Source: Methanococcoides alaskense (lineage in GTDB: Archaea; Halobacteriota; Methanosarcinia; Methanosarcinales; Methanosarcinaceae). From it: a stretch of 64,000 bases of DNA. Within the stretch, counting starts at the first letter, position 1. Each line of letters starts with the position of its first letter. The notes beneath the pieces are model-generated. The model did no database searches, was not told the DNA's origin, and saw only the letters and a list, made by a program, of their open reading frames with translations. Shown piece after piece: positions 53,955-64,000 of this stretch. The position numbers were made by a program, and so were the translations under genes. The stretch is taken from positions 310,001 to 374,000 of the forward strand of contig NZ_JAQFFK010000001.1 in the NCBI RefSeq assembly GCF_027594145.1. The letters run 5' to 3'.

Positions 53955-55268
53955 AGCAGAACACCCCGCGTAAGCTAGGGGATGAATGCGTACTGACATG
54001 ATGATAACCGTTGTTTAACACACATCATGAGCAGTGTTAAGTTGTATGGGGACAAGTATGTTAAAGGCTTTCAAGTATAGAATATATCCTACAAAAGAAC
54101 AGGAAGAGATGTTTTTTCAACATTTCGGTTCATGCAGGTTCATCTATAATTGGGCTTTGGATAACAAGATTAAATCTTATCAAACGGAGGGCAAGTCAAC
54201 ATCAAGGTTCACGTTGAACAAAATGTTGACCGAGTTAAAGGTAGAACATGAATGGTTGAAGGATGTAAATTCTCAATCGCTACAAGGTGCTACCCTTAAT
54301 CTTGAAAATGCTTATACAAAGTTTTTCAGGGAAAAGACTGGATTTCCTAAATTTAAATCGAAGAAGAACCCTGTACAATCGTTTTCTGTACCACAATTCT
54401 ATAAGGTGGACTTTGATGATAATAAAGTATATCTTCCAAAGATAGGGTTTGTCAAGACTATTTTACATCGTAAATTTACAGGTATCGGAAAGACTGCTAC
54501 GGTTTCCAGAACATCTACTGGAAAATACTATCAGCATTCTTGTTGATGATGGTAAAGAAGTGCCTGTTAAATCCTCTTTCGATGAAAGTACAACAGTTGG
54601 CGTTGATGTGGGGATTAAGGATTTCGCTGTTATCTCCAATGGTGAAAAAGTCGAGAATCCTAAGTATCTTAAAAACTCTATGCAACGCCTGAATGTGCTA
54701 CATCGAAGGATGAGCAAGAAACAAAAAGGTTCAAAGAATAGGACAAAAGCTAAACTTGCATTATCAAAACTCCATGAGAAAGTCAGCAACCAGAGAAATG
54801 ATTTCCAACACAAACTCTCTTCTAAACTATTAAGCGAGAACCAAGCTATAGCGTTGGAAACATTGAATGTTGAAGGGATGATGAAAAATCACAACCTTGC
54901 TCAACATATTGCAGATGCTTCGTGGAGTTCCTTTGTATCCATGCTCGAATATAAGGCAGAATGGTGTGGAAAGACCGTTCTCCGCATCGGACAATTCGAA
55001 CCATCAACTAAAATCTGTAACGTGTGCGGTCACTACAAAAATGACATGACACTTGCGGTTAGAGAATGGGAATGTCCCGAATGCAATTCGATTCATGATA
55101 GAGATATTAACGCCGCTATCAACATTAAGAAATTTGCACTTAATAAACAGAACTTAATTAGAATTTGAAGCACCTTCGGAACGAGGGGAAGAGCCTGTGA
55201 AGTTGCGTTCGATGGAACGAGCTATGAAACAGGAAGTTCCATGCGTAAGCGTGGAGTAGTTCACGTTA
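53955..55268 (+). mobile_element. IS605-type element with frameshifted tnpB
   Basis: Approximate bounds. The left end has CCCCGCGTAAGCTAGGGG (53966-53983) and the right end CCATGCGTAAGCGTGG (about 55239-55254), both hairpins with the shared core GCGTAAGC. One open frame (tnpB, broken) and no tnpA. Distinct in sequence from the element at 42755. Confidence 0.7.
54058..55168 (+). pseudogene. tnpB: tnpB with single-base frameshift
   Basis: ATG 54058 opens MLKAFKYRIYPTKEQEEMFF, the usual TnpB N-terminus, and reads to STGKYY near 54530, where one extra base (or two missing) moves the frame. From there ISILVDDGKE continues to TGA 55166 with RuvC Asp (VGVDVGIKDFAV), Glu (ALETLNVEGM), zinc ribbon (CNVCGHYKN, CPEC) and last Asp (HDRDINAAINI). 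All catalytic residues are intact, so the lesion is recent. A programmed frameshift has no obvious slippery sequence here. Confidence 0.85.
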
Positions 55269-55562: not shown

Positions 55563-55694
55563 GGCTCTGTAGAAACCTGCCAAAATCAACATCTATAAGC
55601 TGGAATTGGAATTATATTCCAACATAATATAACACATCCCATAATATTTTAAAATTGAATTATTGTCCGAATATCGAAGATCTCTACAGAATCC
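55563..55694. mobile_element. MITE copy B
   Basis: Left end GGCTCTGTAGAAA identical to copy A; right end degenerate (CTCTACAGAATCC). Shares the internal TATAAGCTGGAATTGGAATT block and the CCGAATATCGA block near the right end. Sits 52 bases before the helicase ATG and therefore supplies part of its upstream region. Confidence 0.8.
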
Positions 55695-55746
55695 CTGTCC
55701 TGAGATTTTAAGTACCATCAAGTGTTGTTACGGATGGTTTTCATTA

Positions 55747-58572
55747 ATGGATATGTCAGGAATTATCAAGATTATCAGTTCTTCACGTGGCTATGAAGGT
55801 CAGATCGTTCACGTAGAGAATATTTTGCCACGGGATGCGGAATTTGGTTCGGTCGAACTTAAACCTTTGATACAATATGCTCTTGCTGAGAAGGGGATCA
55901 AAGAACTTTATACTCATCAGGCTGATGCTATAAAGGAGGTGCTGGACGGTAAGGATGTCGTGCTTTCCACCAGTACTGCCAGCGGGAAATCGTTGTGCTA
56001 TATGCTTCCTATCTTTGAGACATTGATGGAGGATCCTAATGCCACTGCCCTTTATATTTCTCCTTTGAACGCTCTTGTGAACGACCAGCTTGAGAGCTTT
56101 GAGAAGTTCAGGGATTCCATGGGACTTGACCTCAATATTAACAAGTTCATCGGAACAATGCCCCCTGAGGAGAAATCCGCAGTGAAGTATGGGAATCCGC
56201 GTATCCTTTTTACAAATCCTGAAATGGTGCATCTGAGCTTTTTGCAGTGGAAGCAGCAGTGGAAGAAGTTCCTGTCGAACCTTAAATATATAGTTCTTGA
56301 TGAGAGCCATACGTATAGCGGTGTTACAGGTATCAATATGGCCAACCTTTTGAGGAGGCTTAACCGCATTTGTGACCATTATGGTTCAAGTCCGCAGTAT
56401 ATTTGCTGTACTGCGACAATTGGAAACCCAATGGAACATACTTCGGCCTTGATAGGCAGGGATGTTACTTTGATAGATAATGACGGTTCCGGCAGAGGTG
56501 CTCAAAAGTTCATGTTCTGGAACCCGCCTCTTTATTCCCGCTCAAAGAACTTCACTGTTAGAAAGGCAAGCTTTGGTGATACTGTCAATATCTTCACGAC
56601 CTTTGTCCAGAACGATCTTCAGACCATTGTCTTTACCAGGGCAAGGCAGAAGGTCGAAAAGATGTTCGTGGAGGCCAGGAACCAGCTTGAAAGCAGGGGT
56701 GTCCAAAAGACCATAAGCTCTTACAGAGGCGGTTATTATGGCGATGAGCGTGAGGCCATCGAGAAGGGCTTGTCAAGAGGCGAGATAGCAGGTGTGATCT
56801 CGACCACGGCCCTTGAACTTGGTATTGATATCGGGGGTTTGGATGCCTGTGTTATCGATGGATTTCCGGGCACTCTGATGAGTGCGAGACAGCAGGCAGG
56901 CCGTGCGGGTAGGGGCAGCAGTGAGAGCATTGTTGTTCTGGTTGCAGATTCTAATGCTCTTGATCAGTATTATATGAGAAATCCGGGAGAGTTCTTTGTT
57001 AAGGAGTGCGAGCGTGCTGTTATCAATGTCTCGAATAGGAACATTCAGGCCGACCATTTGCTCTGTGCAGCAAAGGAGCTGCCTTTAAGGGATGAGGATG
57101 AGCGGTATTTCGGTAAGGAGTTCAAACGAATAGTCGCTGCTCTTGAGGAAGAAGGTTTACTTGAAGGCGGTTTTGAGAAGCGTTCCCTGGATGGCGGGAC
57201 GCATATGCGTGTCCATATCAGAGGCACTGAGAGCAATGGTTATACTATCTTTGAGAAAGGTTCCCGCAAGCCCCTTGAGAAGGATATCGACAGGTTGCGT
57301 GCTTATCGTGAGGGCTTTAAAGGTGCGATCTACATCAACAAGGGTACTCCATATTGTGTGACGAAACTGGACCATGAGAAACGCATAATTCAAGTCGAGA
57401 AGGCGAGGGATGCGTATTATACCAGGGCCCAGGTAACTTCTGATATTGCTGTCCGTGACGTCATCGATAGCAAACCTCTTTCTACCTTTGATGGGGTCAG
57501 TGTTGGTTTCGGCTATGTGGAGGTCATTCAGCAGGTGACAGGATACAGGAAGCTCCAGCTTCGTTCAGAAAATGAGCTTGGAAGGTTCGAGCTTGATATG
57601 CCGGAGTTCAGCCTTGAGACCGAAGCTCTCTGGCTTGAGCTGCCTGATGGGCTTGTGGGGCTTGTGGAAGAGCACGACAGGGATTTCAATGGCGGGATCC
57701 ATGCCATCGAGCATGCTCTGATCGCTATGTATCCATTGCATCTGCTGGCTGACCGTAATGATGTGGGCGGTGTTTCAACTCCGGAGCATGGAGATATAGG
57801 CAATAGGAGCGGTATTTTCATCTATGATGGTCATGCCGGTGGCGTGGGTTATGCTGAAGCCGGTTATGCAAAGATAGATGAGATGCTTGAGGTAACGTTG
57901 AAGGCCATAGAGGGCTGTCCGTGCAAGGGTGGCTGTCCTTCGTGTATCCAGTCCCCTAAATGCGGCAATAATAATGAGCCTCTGGACAAGGATGCTGCGA
58001 TCATGATCCTCAGGAAGATGCTTGGCAAGCCTGCGTATATCCCTCAGAGGGTCCATCTGTCCGAGGTTGCAAAACAGAGGAGCAGTGCTGTCTCAGGTAG
58101 TGGAATTTCCAGACCTGCCAAGGCCGGTGATAGTCCTGCCGAGGCCTTGAACAGGGCAAAGAGGAAGCTTAAGAAGCAGGGTTCAGGCAGCGCTGGCGAG
58201 TGGGTAAAACTGGGAATTGCTGCCGGCAGGGATGAAAAGGACCATAAGAAGGCCTGTTATTGCTTTGATAAGGCTTTACAGCTGGAACCGGACAATGTCA
58301 CTGCTCTGTTCAATAAAGGCATCACATATATTCAGATGAAGATGTATCCTCTGGCTTTGGAGTGCTTTAACCGATTGCTGAACATCGGTTACAGGGACAA
58401 TGTCAAGGTATGGAAGTGTAAAGGGGATTGCTTACGCATGCTCGATAACCGTGCAGGTGCTATTGAATGTTATAATGAGGCATTGAGATTGAAGCCCGAT
58501 GATGTTAAGATCAAGCAGGCACGGGATAGTTTGAGGGCAATGGATAGGGCTTTGTATCCTGATGATCTGTGA
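55747..58572 (+). CDS. DEAD/DEAH helicase with DUF1998 zinc domain and C-terminal TPRs
   Basis: 941 residues from ATG 55747; the longer frame to 55663 starts inside MITE copy B and is rejected. Motifs: YTHQADAI (56-63), Walker A STASGKS (76-82), DESH (185-188), TATIG, helicase-C ISTTALELGIDIG and QQAGRAGR. The DUF1998 region ends with the four-Cys cluster CPCKGGCPSC...KCGNNN (about 724-742), as in YprA/Hrq1-type DNA repair helicases. Residues about 820-935 hold three TPR-like units (ACYCFDKALQLEPDNVTALF, AIECYNEALRLKPDDVKI), unusual for this family. Likely a 3'-5' DNA helicase for repair or defence, with TPRs adding a protein partner. Confidence 0.9.
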   Translation: MDMSGIIKIISSSRGYEGQIVHVENILPRDAEFGSVELKPLIQYALAEKGIKELYTHQADAIKEVLDGKDVVLSTSTASGKSLCYMLPIFETLMEDPNATALYISPLNALVNDQLESFEKFRDSMGLDLNINKFIGTMPPEEKSAVKYGNPRILFTNPEMVHLSFLQWKQQWKKFLSNLKYIVLDESHTYSGVTGINMANLLRRLNRICDHYGSSPQYICCTATIGNPMEHTSALIGRDVTLIDNDGSGRGAQKFMFWNPPLYSRSKNFTVRKASFGDTVNIFTTFVQNDLQTIVFTRARQKVEKMFVEARNQLESRGVQKTISSYRGGYYGDEREAIEKGLSRGEIAGVISTTALELGIDIGGLDACVIDGFPGTLMSARQQAGRAGRGSSESIVVLVADSNALDQYYMRNPGEFFVKECERAVINVSNRNIQADHLLCAAKELPLRDEDERYFGKEFKRIVAALEEEGLLEGGFEKRSLDGGTHMRVHIRGTESNGYTIFEKGSRKPLEKDIDRLRAYREGFKGAIYINKGTPYCVTKLDHEKRIIQVEKARDAYYTRAQVTSDIAVRDVIDSKPLSTFDGVSVGFGYVEVIQQVTGYRKLQLRSENELGRFELDMPEFSLETEALWLELPDGLVGLVEEHDRDFNGGIHAIEHALIAMYPLHLLADRNDVGGVSTPEHGDIGNRSGIFIYDGHAGGVGYAEAGYAKIDEMLEVTLKAIEGCPCKGGCPSCIQSPKCGNNNEPLDKDAAIMILRKMLGKPAYIPQRVHLSEVAKQRSSAVSGSGISRPAKAGDSPAEALNRAKRKLKKQGSGSAGEWVKLGIAAGRDEKDHKKACYCFDKALQLEPDNVTALFNKGITYIQMKMYPLALECFNRLLNIGYRDNVKVWKCKGDCLRMLDNRAGAIECYNEALRLKPDDVKIKQARDSLRAMDRALYPDDL

Positions 58573-59913: not shown

Positions 59914-60217
59914 CCTCATCTGTTGACATTGACATAAATCTGCAATGACGTTTTTATTATTTTACTATTTTGTTTTTAGGTTTTAAGTACTTCAAACTCT
60001 ATACCAACTGTTAACGGTGTTAAAATTGGAAAATAGATTACTATCACAAAAGATACTAATTCCAAAATTTGTCCACACTGCTGGTGGTCTGCTAATCAAG
60101 GACGTTAAGCTCCTGGCAGCGAGTGAGTGGACGGATAGCAATGTTCAAACTCCACTCATCTGATAAATTATATCTCATCTGAATGATGCAATAAAAAGAA
60201 ATTCAAAGATACTCGTA
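59914..60217. other. intergenic with a possible gene scrap
   Basis: 304 bases between converging genes. Plus-strand 60068-60164 reads FVHTAGGLLIKDVKLLAASE, then WTDSNVQTPLI and TGA, without a start; it may be a 3' remnant of a lost gene. Not identified. Confidence 0.35.
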
Positions 60218-60898
60218 TCAGAGCATCTCATTAACTGCTTCCAGAAGGTCGTGGGCTCTCTCCACAGGGATTCCTATTATCATCTCGTCTTCTGCGACGT
60301 TTGCGAACTTTCTGCTGCCACCGCATCCAAGGGTTACGCTGATCTTTCCTTCCTTGTATGGTCTTACAACACCATCAGCACAAATACTCTGGATTCCTGC
60401 AAAGCTTGTTTCTACTCTGCCACCGTGCTTGTAAATAAGTGCCTGTGAAAGCTGCATTACCTGCTTTGGTGTAGTGATTATTACAATTACATCAGGAGCA
60501 AATGTTGCACTCTCGAGAGGGCCATAAACAGCAGCCTTTATGGAATTAGGCTCTAATCTAGTAACACTTTCCATTGTGCGTCTTGCTGCATTGATAGTGT
60601 CGAAACGGTTAAGATTTAAATAGGTTTGACCGGTAGCTAACTTGGTTGGCATTTCATTAAGTCCCATCATTGCGGAACCGCCTTTACATGCCTGCTCATC
60701 TGCGGTTGCATAGAACTCCCTGCCGGTCTTTCTGACCATGTCTACCATCTGACAGTGTCTTGTAGTCTCATCAAGCTTCTCAATACCTTCAGGAATATCA
60801 CGTCCTTTCTGAATAAGTGAAACTGCAACAGGCTTTGTCTTAAGGTTGAGTTTTTCTGTGAGTATCTTACCGAATTCATTTAGCTCTTTGAGATCCAT
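60218..60898 (-). CDS. DUF169 family protein
   Basis: 226 residues of the DUF169 family, common in methanogens and anaerobes. Typical blocks: LKTKPVAVSLIQKGRDIPEG near the start, RHCQMVDMVRKTGREFYATA with Cys, QACKGGSAMMGLNEMP with Cys, YGPLESATFAPDVIVIITTP and VTLGCGGSRKFANV with Cys, and a final IGIPVERAHDLLEAV. The conserved cysteines suggest a metal or corrinoid-related role, but function is unproven. ATG 60898 has GGAGTGA upstream (minus strand). A dyad element lies 92 bases upstream over its TATA-like box. Confidence 0.9.
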   Translation of the reverse strand: MDLKELNEFGKILTEKLNLKTKPVAVSLIQKGRDIPEGIEKLDETTRHCQMVDMVRKTGREFYATADEQACKGGSAMMGLNEMPTKLATGQTYLNLNRFDTINAARRTMESVTRLEPNSIKAAVYGPLESATFAPDVIVIITTPKQVMQLSQALIYKHGGRVETSFAGIQSICADGVVRPYKEGKISVTLGCGGSRKFANVAEDEMIIGIPVERAHDLLEAVNEML

Positions 60899-60989
60899 AT
60901 TGATTCACTCCATATTTTCATATATTTATGATCTGAACTGTATCTGTTTAACGGTTCAGTAGGTTTTTCACGGTTATGGTCTAAATGTA

Positions 60990-61052
60990 CACAACTGCTT
61001 ATATTTAAGCATATCTATAAATGGTTAGCACTGTTCACTGCTAACAGTTGTG
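60990..61052. promoter_or_regulatory. nested dyad able to form a three-way junction
   Basis: CACAAC (60990-60995) pairs with GTTGTG (61047-61052). Inside are two hairpins: TGCTT/AAGCA (60996-61011) and GTTAGCA/TGCTAAC (61024-61045). The minus-strand TATA-like TTAAATATAAG for the DUF169 gene lies within the first. It could be an operator for a dimeric repressor or a structured leader of either flanking gene. Confidence 0.5.
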
Positions 61053-61461
61053 CTTATTGTGGTTAAAAAAAGAATGAAAATGAGATTGAAATGAGCATAA
61101 ATCAGATGGGATTAGAAAACTCCTATCCTGATAAAATACTTACTTCTCAGAAAAACTACAAGAGGAACAACTTGAATCAAATACAAGAAAAGTCTTGAGA
61201 AAGATTCAGGAAGCAAATGAGATAAAAGTTAAAAGCTTGTTGATATTAATACAATGTTTTTTATGTTTGCTAAAGACAGTAAGAAAATAAAGGGTATTAT
61301 AGAGTTTTTAACGGTCAGAATCGTTCCCAATCGGAAAGGATATATTGTTGTTTGGATTATGTCATATGTCCTTAGTTTAGTTTGTATTTTGATTGATTTA
61401 AACAAAACTAGGAGCACATATATTAATTTTGAATGTATAAATTGGTTGCAGGAGATACAAT
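61053..61461. other. intergenic upstream of the ATPase/TPR pair
   Basis: 409 bases. No supported gene; a hydrophobic frame at 61254-61481 has no ribosome site. AGGAGA (61450-61455) is the ribosome site of the ATPase at 61462. Confidence 0.45.
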
Positions 61462-62715
61462 ATGCCAGAAGAAATAGCTGAAGAATTCATTGTTGCTGAT
61501 AATCTGGATTTTGCATGGAGCAATTTCGATCCGTTCTATACTTTACCGGCAAAGTCCCCTTTCCATGTAGAACGTGAAGGCAAACCTTTGTACCGATTGA
61601 TCAGGGCTCTTTTGCGTCAGCATAAACAATCTCCAAAATACTTTTATAGCGGTCATAGAGGATGCGGCAAGTCAACGGAACTAAATATACTTGCTGAGAA
61701 TGAGGACATAAAAGAAAAATTCTTTGTTGTGAAGTACTCGATGAAAGAGGTCTGCGATGTACAAAATCTTAACTATATTGATGTGCTTTTTTCTATCGGT
61801 GCACAACTGTTTATTCAGTATACAGATGCGGGAAATGAGTTGAAGCCTGAGCTTATAAAAGAACTTGAGGCTTGGCAAAGCAGTGTAATTGAGCAAATAA
61901 ATGAAGAAGGAAAAGTCAATGAAACCTCACTTGAAGGAGGTATCAAAACATTCTTCGTTTCCATTATGGGGAAAATCAAATCTGAGCAATCTACGAGGAA
62001 GATTATCCGCCAAACAATAGAACCCAGACTTTCTGATCTTATCGCTAAGATAAATATGATCATTGCAAATATCGAAGGTCAGGAAAATAAGAAAGTCCTT
62101 GTCCTAATCGATGATTTGGATAAACCTCGTTTGGAAGAAGCAGAAACAATTTTTTACGATAACCAGACGGCAATAACCCAGCCGTTATGCTATATCGTCT
62201 ATACGGTACCTATTGCCATATTCTTCTCCCAGAAGTCTGTAGCGGTAAGGGATACCAATTTCTGCCTCCCTAATATCAAGTTACATTATAAAAATAAGAG
62301 AGATGAACTGTATGATTCTGGTTATGAACTGATGAAAAAGTTTGTTCATAAAAGAATGAACGAAGATCTAATCGAACTCGATGCACTGGAACTTGCCATT
62401 AAAACAGGTGCAGGTGTGTTTAGAGAAACTGCACGTGTAATGCAGATTGCAATTGATAGTGCAATAGAAAATGGCAGAACCATTATAAAAACAGAAGATG
62501 TGGAAAGGGCTGCCAGTGAAATAAGAAGTGATTTTAAACGTATTCTTGAATCAAAAGACTACTACACACTCAAAGAAATATACAAGAATAACGATCTTCA
62601 AGGAATAGAAAAAATAGCTCACCTATTGCATAATCTTAGCGTCCTTGAATATGTGAATGGTGAAAACTGGTGTGATGTACACCCCACACTCGAAGAGATT
62701 CTATTGCATGACTGA
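61462..62715 (+). CDS. P-loop ATPase (STAND/AAA-like), partner of the TPR protein
   Basis: 417 residues, soluble. An N-terminal strand region (DPFYTLPAKSPFHVER) leads to Walker A SGHRGCGKST (about residues 59-68). Walker B is VLVLIDDLDKP near residue 215, with a following sensor-like strand CYIVYTVPIAIF. The C-terminal 120 residues are helical and end in a winged-helix-like part (LLHNLSVLEYVNGENWCDVH). The layout resembles Orc1/STAND NTPases that act as molecular switches. ATG 61462 follows AGGAGA. Its stop overlaps the TPR gene start by 8 bases (ATGACTGA), so the two products should be made together. Family name not known to me. Confidence 0.75.
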   Translation: MPEEIAEEFIVADNLDFAWSNFDPFYTLPAKSPFHVEREGKPLYRLIRALLRQHKQSPKYFYSGHRGCGKSTELNILAENEDIKEKFFVVKYSMKEVCDVQNLNYIDVLFSIGAQLFIQYTDAGNELKPELIKELEAWQSSVIEQINEEGKVNETSLEGGIKTFFVSIMGKIKSEQSTRKIIRQTIEPRLSDLIAKINMIIANIEGQENKKVLVLIDDLDKPRLEEAETIFYDNQTAITQPLCYIVYTVPIAIFFSQKSVAVRDTNFCLPNIKLHYKNKRDELYDSGYELMKKFVHKRMNEDLIELDALELAIKTGAGVFRETARVMQIAIDSAIENGRTIIKTEDVERAASEIRSDFKRILESKDYYTLKEIYKNNDLQGIEKIAHLLHNLSVLEYVNGENWCDVHPTLEEILLHD

Positions 62716-63946
62716 ATCAGAAGACACCCGGATCTTACGGCTCTGCAATTATCTTGGTCGTTCACATAAGTATAACAAAGCTTCGATTCTTTTTGCACTG
62801 TATCTGAGTGAATTTTTGCGTGATGATGTAGAGGAATCTATTAAAAGAATACTGAAAGAACAGGGCCTTAATGTTGTCATCGTTGATGCGGGAGAAAATA
62901 AGGACCTACCTTTATATTTTTCATTAACTGACTCCAAAAACATTATTTTTTTCGTACACAACCTCGAAAAGGGATTTCCTGAAACCATCCAGTACCTGAA
63001 CTTTAAACGGGAAGAACTTGTCGAGCACCATGTCAAAGTTGTGTTCTGGACAACCGAAGAAGAGCTCTCACGCATCAGTGTTGAAGCACCAGACTTCTTC
63101 GCATTCAGAAATCGCGTGGTGGAGTTCATGGAAGTGCCTGAAGAAAGAAAGTTCAGACCTGGTCTCGTTGAATTTGCATTGGAAACCGAGTATCGGTCCT
63201 TGGATGAGATTAAACACAACATCCAGCTAAAAGAATCACTTCTGTCTGATCTCTCCACAGATACAGAAATAAGCGGGTATTTATTCGCTTCACTTGGAAC
63301 CTTGTACAATCAGATTGGAGATTATAAGAAATCCATTGATTGCAGTGAAAAGGCATTGAAGATATCTAAAGAAATGGAAAACAAACATGGGGAGGCTGCT
63401 AATCTCGGAAACCTCGGTATCGCTTACAGTGATCTTGGGCAGGTTGAGAAAGCGATTGAGTACCATGAGCAGGCACTTGTGATTTCACGTGAGATCGGGG
63501 ACAGATCCGGGGAAGGTGCTGATCTCGGAAACCTCGGTATCGCTTACCATGCTCTTGGTCAGGTTGAGAAAGCGATTGAGTACCATGAGCAGGCACTTGT
63601 GATTTCACGTGAGATCGGAGACCGGCGCGAGGAAGGCATTTGGATTGGAAACCTCGGTATCGCTTACAGTGATCTTGGGCAGGTTGAGAAAGCGATTGAG
63701 TACTATGAGCAGGCACTTGTGATTTCACGTGAGACCGGAAACCGGAGCGGTGAAGGTAATAATCTCGGAAATCTCGGGCTCGCTTACAGTAATCTTGGTA
63801 AGGTTGAGAAAGCCATTGAGTATCTTGAAAAAGCACTTGAGATAGGCACAGAAATAAAAGAACCACGAATAACTAATTTTTGTGAACAACTACTAAATTC
63901 GCTGAAAATTTTAGATGATTTAAACTCGATTGAAAGAAAGTCATAA
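62708..63946 (+). CDS. TPR protein coupled to the ATPase
   Basis: 412 residues from ATG 62708, chosen because it overlaps the ATPase stop and the upstream extension of the frame lies inside the ATPase gene. Residues 1-170 are a domain with NIIFFVHNLEKGFPETIQYL and VKVVFWTTEEELSRI, APDFFAFRNRVVEF, a pattern I know from STAND/TPR proteins (usually W.T/LP...APDFW.WR). Residues about 195-400 are TPRs: four to five 40-residue units of the LGN type (GNLGIAYSDLGQVEKAIEYH, EQALVISREIGDR). Likely the target-recognition or scaffold part of a two-component switch. Function unknown. Confidence 0.75.
   Translation: MTESEDTRILRLCNYLGRSHKYNKASILFALYLSEFLRDDVEESIKRILKEQGLNVVIVDAGENKDLPLYFSLTDSKNIIFFVHNLEKGFPETIQYLNFKREELVEHHVKVVFWTTEEELSRISVEAPDFFAFRNRVVEFMEVPEERKFRPGLVEFALETEYRSLDEIKHNIQLKESLLSDLSTDTEISGYLFASLGTLYNQIGDYKKSIDCSEKALKISKEMENKHGEAANLGNLGIAYSDLGQVEKAIEYHEQALVISREIGDRSGEGADLGNLGIAYHALGQVEKAIEYHEQALVISREIGDRREEGIWIGNLGIAYSDLGQVEKAIEYYEQALVISRETGNRSGEGNNLGNLGLAYSNLGKVEKAIEYLEKALEIGTEIKEPRITNFCEQLLNSLKILDDLNSIERKS
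63401..63880 (+). repeat. four tandem 120-base TPR-coding units
   Basis: Units start at 63401, 63521, 63641 and 63761. The first three are nearly identical at DNA level through CTCGGAAACCTCGGTATCGC and TTGAGAAAGCGATTGAGTAC; the fourth has diverged. Identity including third codon positions implies recent duplication or gene conversion. Confidence 0.9.
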
Positions 63947-64000
63947 AGAATTATATGGAATGGCCAGATTAAACTTGTTAAATCAAGTAGCATCAAACAC

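Follow-up and report, generated by a model that had tools for sequence, protein, structure and literature searches.

The window, which is the whole stretch of 64,000 nucleotides of Methanococcoides alaskense that was analysed, carries near its right end two overlapping genes on the forward strand, here called A and B. Gene A encodes a P-loop ATPase, probably of AAA+/STAND type, and gene B encodes a protein in which an N-terminal domain (N-domain) is followed by TPRs. The features of the locus are as follows:

60218–60898, minus strand: left flanking gene, DUF169-like; its paralogue at 64102–64860 is the right flank.
61075–64000, no strand assigned: accessory insert with A and B; its empty site is seen in congener G096, and its right edge lies at about 64016, 16 nt past the window.
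61462–62715, plus strand: gene A, P-loop ATPase of probable AAA+/STAND type, 417 aa (NTPase core, lid, C-terminal winged helix).
61651–61677, plus strand: Walker A motif GHRGCGKST, residues 64–72 of A; Lys70 is present in all 94 aligned homologues.
62101–62127, plus strand: Walker B motif VLIDDLDKP, residues 214–222 of A; Asp217 is kept in 92 of 94.
62708–62715, plus strand: 8-nt overlap ATGACTGA, holding the stop of A and the start of B.
62708–63946, plus strand: gene B, N-domain and TPR protein, 412 aa, with its ATG at 62708.
62708–63142, plus strand: N-domain of B, about residues 1–145, predicted as a five-stranded alpha/beta domain with no P-loop; the conserved partner of A.
63155–63886, plus strand: predicted helical TPR superhelix of B, about residues 150–393.
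63389–63843, plus strand: near-identical 120-bp tandem repeats coding for TPRs of B.

An earlier note on this DNA had stated that the two genes overlap, and the 8 nt shared at 62708–62715 confirm it; overlaps of 4 nt (31/125) and 8 nt (25/125) were the commonest A–B spacings in a pooled, partly redundant set of loci. A start of B at 62657, taken from a mechanical ORF call, was discarded as unsupported; homologues align from 62708. The host genome (1.97 Mb, 77% complete) contains a single copy of A, and a search of positions 60800–64000 against Rfam gave no match.

Comparison with congeners revealed that the pair forms a clean insertion, in agreement with the accessory location first proposed for it. 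The flanking genes, presumably DUF169 genes, adjoin each other at a distance of 210–742 bp in nine of ten congeners and are separated by 3191 bp in the window genome; A is missing from all ten, beyond a 47-position P-loop match. The empty site of G096 aligns to 60207–61074 and 64017–65460 in window coordinates, with the join at locus positions 1414–1418, and since the flanks meet there, the insert can be placed at about 61075–64016 (2.94 kb). Terminal repeats or a target duplication were not evident at its ends. Two other congeners, G097 and G095, carry a different insert of 0.5 kb at the same site, which is therefore a hotspot with interchangeable cargo. The 0.5-kb inserts (L165, about 962–1418; L168, about 2339–2841) seem to encode a protein that we take to be of CGGC type, and the one in L168 is flanked by inverted GGCTCTGTAGAAATCC ends. 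Further to the left in the window, the overlapping frames 54034–54546 and 54449–55168 were read as one broken OrfB/TnpB gene, presumably of IS605 type, beside a helicase gene; the broken frames are a sign of transposon activity near the A–B pair. The DEAD/DEAH helicase encoded at 55663–58572, to our eye MrfA-like, has a C-terminus that reads as TPRs, an unusual fusion.

The structure of A was predicted with AlphaFold2 using 31 homologues (mean pLDDT 89.5, pTM 0.88), and the model places a winged helix after the NTPase and lid, with structural alignments reaching residue 417. The top Foldseek matches were Cdc6/Orc1. When compared by VIA-align, the model matched Drosophila ORC (Z 16.5, rmsd 3.0, 242 aligned), TnsC (Z 16.3, rmsd 4.1, 290 aligned), the NRC4 resistosome (Z 15.2, rmsd 4.7, 279 aligned), PABY2304 (Z 15.1, rmsd 4.5, 296 aligned), SSO1545 (Z 14.2, rmsd 4.7, 295 aligned) and CED-4 (Z 14.2, rmsd 4.5, 277 aligned); the STAND, ORC and TnsC groups thus overlap at Z 14–16.5, and the score does not separate them. 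Two arginines are conserved as well, Arg298 in 94/94 and Arg183 in 93/94 aligned homologues. All Pfam matches of window A fell below the curated cutoffs, KAP_NTPase scoring 19.2 bits where 20 is required; at E 0.01, the 31 homologues matched KAP_NTPase (25), AAA_16 (23), AAA_22 (21) and ATPase_2 (21), and a distant homologue on the Nostoc C057 plasmid exceeded the curated cutoff of KAP_NTPase. KAP NTPases have membrane helices inside the NTPase domain. No KAP-like membrane helices were found in window A, the hydropathy maximum being 1.64 over 19 residues, and a value of 1.6 was exceeded in only 4 of 94 homologues, none of them above 1.65. PADLOC gave no specific system match for window A (best mad8, E 0.003, partial); mad8 was matched by 25 of the 31 homologues, at best with 8e-7, which is similarity of a generic, ATPase-level kind. 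A PDB sequence search with A alone returned no match. Based on the conserved motifs, the predicted fold and Pfam matches that stay below curated cutoffs, A is probably an active ATPase of AAA+/STAND type that belongs to no named family, and its earlier description as a switch-type ATPase is supported by the Walker motifs and the modelled STAND/ORC/TnsC fold.

The same model allows for another role, in which A would be a DNA-loading ATPase resembling ORC or TnsC, with B as a recruiting adaptor, and the pair would serve a mobile element in its replication, partition or transposition. The Cdc6/Orc1 matches at the top of the Foldseek results, the TnsC alignment, the clean insertion and the ParB, ParA and Y1-transposase-like neighbours in Chloroflexota (see below) are in its favour, but the 2.94-kb insert contains no replication or transposition gene and has neither visible terminal repeats nor a target duplication, and the links of relatives to TIR, WD40 and VMAP would be unusual for replication. 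We consider this role unlikely.

Protein B is a TPR protein, as had been read from the sequence, with a match to Pfam TPR_12 at E 4e-53. Its tandem array (period 120, 3.8 copies) includes three units that are pairwise identical at 101–108 of 120 bases. The model of B (pLDDT 90.9, pTM 0.64) consists of the alpha/beta N-domain and then the TPR superhelix, which resembles LGN and Rap-type TPR proteins in VIA, where the matches listed for B were TPRs; in Foldseek, the STAND-TPR structure 6mfv appeared at rank 38. The suggestion that B starts with a domain usual in STAND/TPR proteins found no confirmation: among 42 members examined, the N-domain had no convincing Pfam match, and a sequence search of the PDB gave nothing for it below E 0.1. 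Profile comparison of the N-domain with A revealed no similarity, and for this reason B is not put forward as an eroded copy of A. The residues of the N-domain are not invariant between groups, which would fit an adaptor better than an enzyme. The B proteins of two archaeal loci, L069 and L072, have a C-terminal pair of membrane helices.

To characterize how far the two genes travel together, 185 genomes of the order were searched with A, 53 stretches were fetched, and the downstream ORF was readable in 49. Relatives of A occurred in 49 of the 185 genomes, with 63–74% identity in one group and about 30–41% in the others, and the downstream ORF contained the N-domain, by profile, in 48 of the 49 testable loci. 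In the exception, L063, the N-domain and A lie inside one 860-aa frame; this was rejected as Rosetta-stone evidence, as the frames seem to be joined by a frameshift at the overlap. A 1482-aa ORF in G259 was likewise rejected as a domain fusion, being an open frame upstream of A. Species-wide, no relative turned up when the single A sequence served as query, but alignment A1 did find relatives, and the best 80 of 512 stretches encoding A relatives, which span archaea and Chloroflexota, were taken further. Here the ORF downstream of A contained the N-domain in 73 of 76 testable loci; this set shares contigs with the 49-locus set, and the two are not additive. The three others are L117, where an ORF that by eye holds only an N-domain precedes a ParA gene, L119, with a TPR protein in which the N-domain was not recognised, and L093, where the sequence ends near A.

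In the reverse direction, 52 of 63 places with an N-domain in the 185 genomes were directly downstream of A, and among the remaining 11 are fragments at contig edges and three copies interrupted by TGA. The N-domain was present in 49 genomes, as many as A (a count that omits weak P-loop-only matches with E above 1e-4), and both were present in 42. The A–B gene order is conserved far beyond chance. Moreover, the distance matrices of A and the N-domain correlate with r 0.73 over 94 pairs (0/999 permutations), and with r 0.60 when limited to the window's group (17 pairs; 0/999 permutations). A search for co-occurring homologues had been named in the earlier note as a check on the pair, and both overlapping sets bear out its co-conservation. 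The three broken copies (G157:C1:1769161–1769640, G166:C174:837–1304 and G169:C24:29430–29912) are stand-alone N-domains with an in-frame TGA and without A, all in one genus of the window's family, an apparent decay of the module.

A maximum-likelihood tree of 94 A sequences, rooted at the midpoint, placed the window's group (n=17; mostly Methanosarcinales and ANME-1, with one Brocadiaceae bin) as sister to a mainly Chloroflexota group, and a branch with 100/100 support parts these two from the A groups of other archaeal lineages. Of 121 genomes of the order Anaerolineales, 12 matched A at E 0.001, seven of them beyond a short P-loop stretch, and six of six Chloroflexota genomes had one full-length copy each. 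No A homologues were found in the phage records and viral contigs searched. With so patchy a distribution, and with the TGA-broken copies, A and B might be passenger genes that have no present role and are spread by recombination with their neighbours; however, gene order, overlap and ATPase motifs are kept across archaea and bacteria and the divergence of A and B is matched, which makes this reading very improbable.

Loci of the Chloroflexota type have an operon in common. Of the 80 loci, 35 have a MraZ-like gene upstream, and when only those MraZ loci with enough upstream sequence were counted, a response regulator was present in 28/30, a 7TM histidine kinase in 25/29, and similarity to the N-domain upstream or in the locus in 21/22, some of it being B itself. 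An Mrr-type endonuclease occurred in 11 of 22 long loci of the Chloroflexota type, and a Y1-transposase-like gene also in 11 of 22. ParB similarity was detected in 11 of the 80 loci, and in L112 and L134 it forms one protein with B. Two TPR proteins of L112 (9253–12138 and 12175–14634) are unusual in architecture, as ParB N-terminal and HTH domains are embedded in them. In L181 (3214–19199) a Chloroflexota operon can be read on a long chromosomal contig; its genes encode a Y1-transposase-like protein, a membrane protein, an Mrr nuclease, an N-domain/TPR protein, a histidine kinase, a response regulator, a MraZ-like protein, a second response regulator, A, B and two TPR proteins.

This operon, with its MraZ-like gene, response regulator and histidine kinase, the ParB similarities and fusions, and the single full-length copy per Chloroflexota genome are what one would expect if A–B were an ATP-dependent regulatory switch in transcription, segregation or stress signalling and not a defence system; a ligand of the TPRs would then control a winged-helix ATPase that acts on DNA or on regulators. 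Such a role fits less well with the patchy occurrence (49/185 genomes of the window's order, 7/121 in Anaerolineales), with archaeal copies that lack the regulators of the Chloroflexota operon, and with the Mrr nuclease genes found in that operon too. We regard it as a serious and indeed the main competitor of a defence role, at clearly less than an even chance.

In L117 a TIR-pentapeptide gene directly precedes A. A search of 72,556 plasmid records gave nine matches to A, at 22–28% identity, and five loci were read. On the plasmids of Nostoc ATCC 53789 and Acaryochloris, A is followed by an N-domain protein, and B of Nostoc ATCC 53789 has WD40 repeats at its C-terminus. The Calothrix plasmid encodes A and, in addition, an A homologue with a C-terminal TIR domain, adjoined by a protein with two B N-domains and nSTAND1. 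On the Nostoc C057 plasmid, the A homologue is fused to a protein that we take to be vWA-like and lies beside MoxR and a VMAP-C/M1 protein. At the Acidisarcina locus the A homologue is weak and partial, and the TPR genes are separate and gave no N-domain match.

In the window, no effector gene lies beside the A–B pair. Neighbours of archaeal loci were scanned in two sets with PADLOC at E 1e-12 (129 and 134 representatives, that is 263 of 266 with three long ones excluded; no control set), and no defence system recurred among the matches listed in the two scans. The strong models there were represented by one protein each (e.g., HamB, type I specificity and methylase, DrmD, IetA); mad2, with 5 and 2 members, was the exception. 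The earlier note had also pointed to defence islands, and a constant association with defence was not seen among these archaeal neighbours, scanned as they were without a control set. Its broader proposal, a split STAND-like system in defence or signalling, survives in part: the co-conservation of A and B and the conflict-type contexts of relatives speak for it, while no effector is encoded next to the pair in the window and the Chloroflexota operon equally suggests regulation. A literature search of titles and abstracts, with subscription papers outside its scope, gave no description of the A–B pair.

The best explanation, which we hold with middling confidence, is that A and B are subunits of one split STAND-type (NLR-like) switch. 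Its most likely role would be of the conflict or immune type, because relatives fuse or link both modules to TIR, VMAP/MoxR, nSTAND1 and Mrr nuclease; a defence function as such has a roughly even chance. We infer a physical A–B complex, oligomerisation, a trigger and an output. A would be the ATP-binding engine (NTPase, lid and winged helix), on which B would dock via its N-domain while the TPR superhelix would sense a ligand. At rest A would be closed and nucleotide-bound; binding of the trigger by the TPRs would move B, A would then exchange its nucleotide and oligomerise, and the oligomer would activate the output. As no output partner lies beside the pair, it would act in trans in this genome. 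Exchange of TPR, WD40, ParB and nSTAND1 parts behind the N-domain, and of TIR or VMAP on A, is what the STAND conflict systems presented by Kaur and colleagues would lead one to expect (PMC7159879, PMC8195603).

Several points count against the split switch. The cyanobacterial contexts rest on distant homologues (22–28% identity), the ORC/Cdc6 and TnsC matches of the predicted fold are as good as those to STANDs, the N-domain profile reveals no relation to A and the fused form in L063 looks like a frameshift, and the pair did not appear by sequence in the phage records and viral contigs searched. More tentatively, and at clearly less than an even chance, the N-domain may be an undescribed docking module that brings interchangeable sensors (TPR, WD40), DNA-binding ParB parts or additional nSTAND1 switches to one conserved ATPase engine. 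Such docking would span archaea, Chloroflexota and cyanobacteria and would give methane-cycling archaea a modular, two-subunit counterpart of NLRs. If the split switch is true, its conserved form would be a simple two-protein system for studying the control of a STAND ATPase by its sensor, one that moves among methanogens and ANME archaea and that bacteria share. It would also hint that archaea, in which tests of such systems have been few, possess an immune-type repertoire, and the common N-domain would be a handle for finding further members.

NLR-type switches usually have engine and sensor on one chain. Like STAND NTPases (NLR, CED-4, and PABY2304 and SSO1545, both of the archaeal MNS type), A has a predicted NTPase/lid/winged-helix fold, over residues 20–417, and B has a repeat superhelix as presumed sensor, as in STAND NTPases including the STAND-TPR 6mfv. 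In contrast to them, engine and sensor are here separate genes, with TPRs absent from the A chain, the sensor would be linked to the engine by a conserved N-domain without known family, and the window pair has no effector domain. Since the sensor TPRs are on the separate chain B, we file the pair as a STAND variant in spite of its motifs and fold. With the MoxR-vWA VMAP ternary conflict systems (PMC7159879), the likeness lies in the A–vWA-like fusion of the Nostoc C057 plasmid beside MoxR and VMAP-C/M1, whereas the window pair has no MoxR, vWA or VMAP alongside. PMC8195603 names an Npun2340/2341 family, a STAND family of the MNS clade; its name suggests adjacent Nostoc genes, and we guess that it may share a lineage with the cyanobacterial pairs. 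That paper also describes the nSTAND2 counter-invader system, a mobile two-gene operon that pairs an active NTPase with another protein bearing variable modules; STAND modules are encoded by both of its genes, and GT4 or HEPN is found on the second (PMC8195603). B differs from that second protein in having TPR, WD40 or ParB, with GT4 and HEPN not among the families listed for window B and 10 other B proteins, and in an N-domain that has no detectable relation to A. When considered as an eroded STAND NTPase, this N-domain has a predicted alpha/beta topology, no P-loop and no profile match to A. What the A–B pair shares with the nSTAND2 system is the mobile two-gene operon in which an NTPase is joined by a second protein with variable modules.
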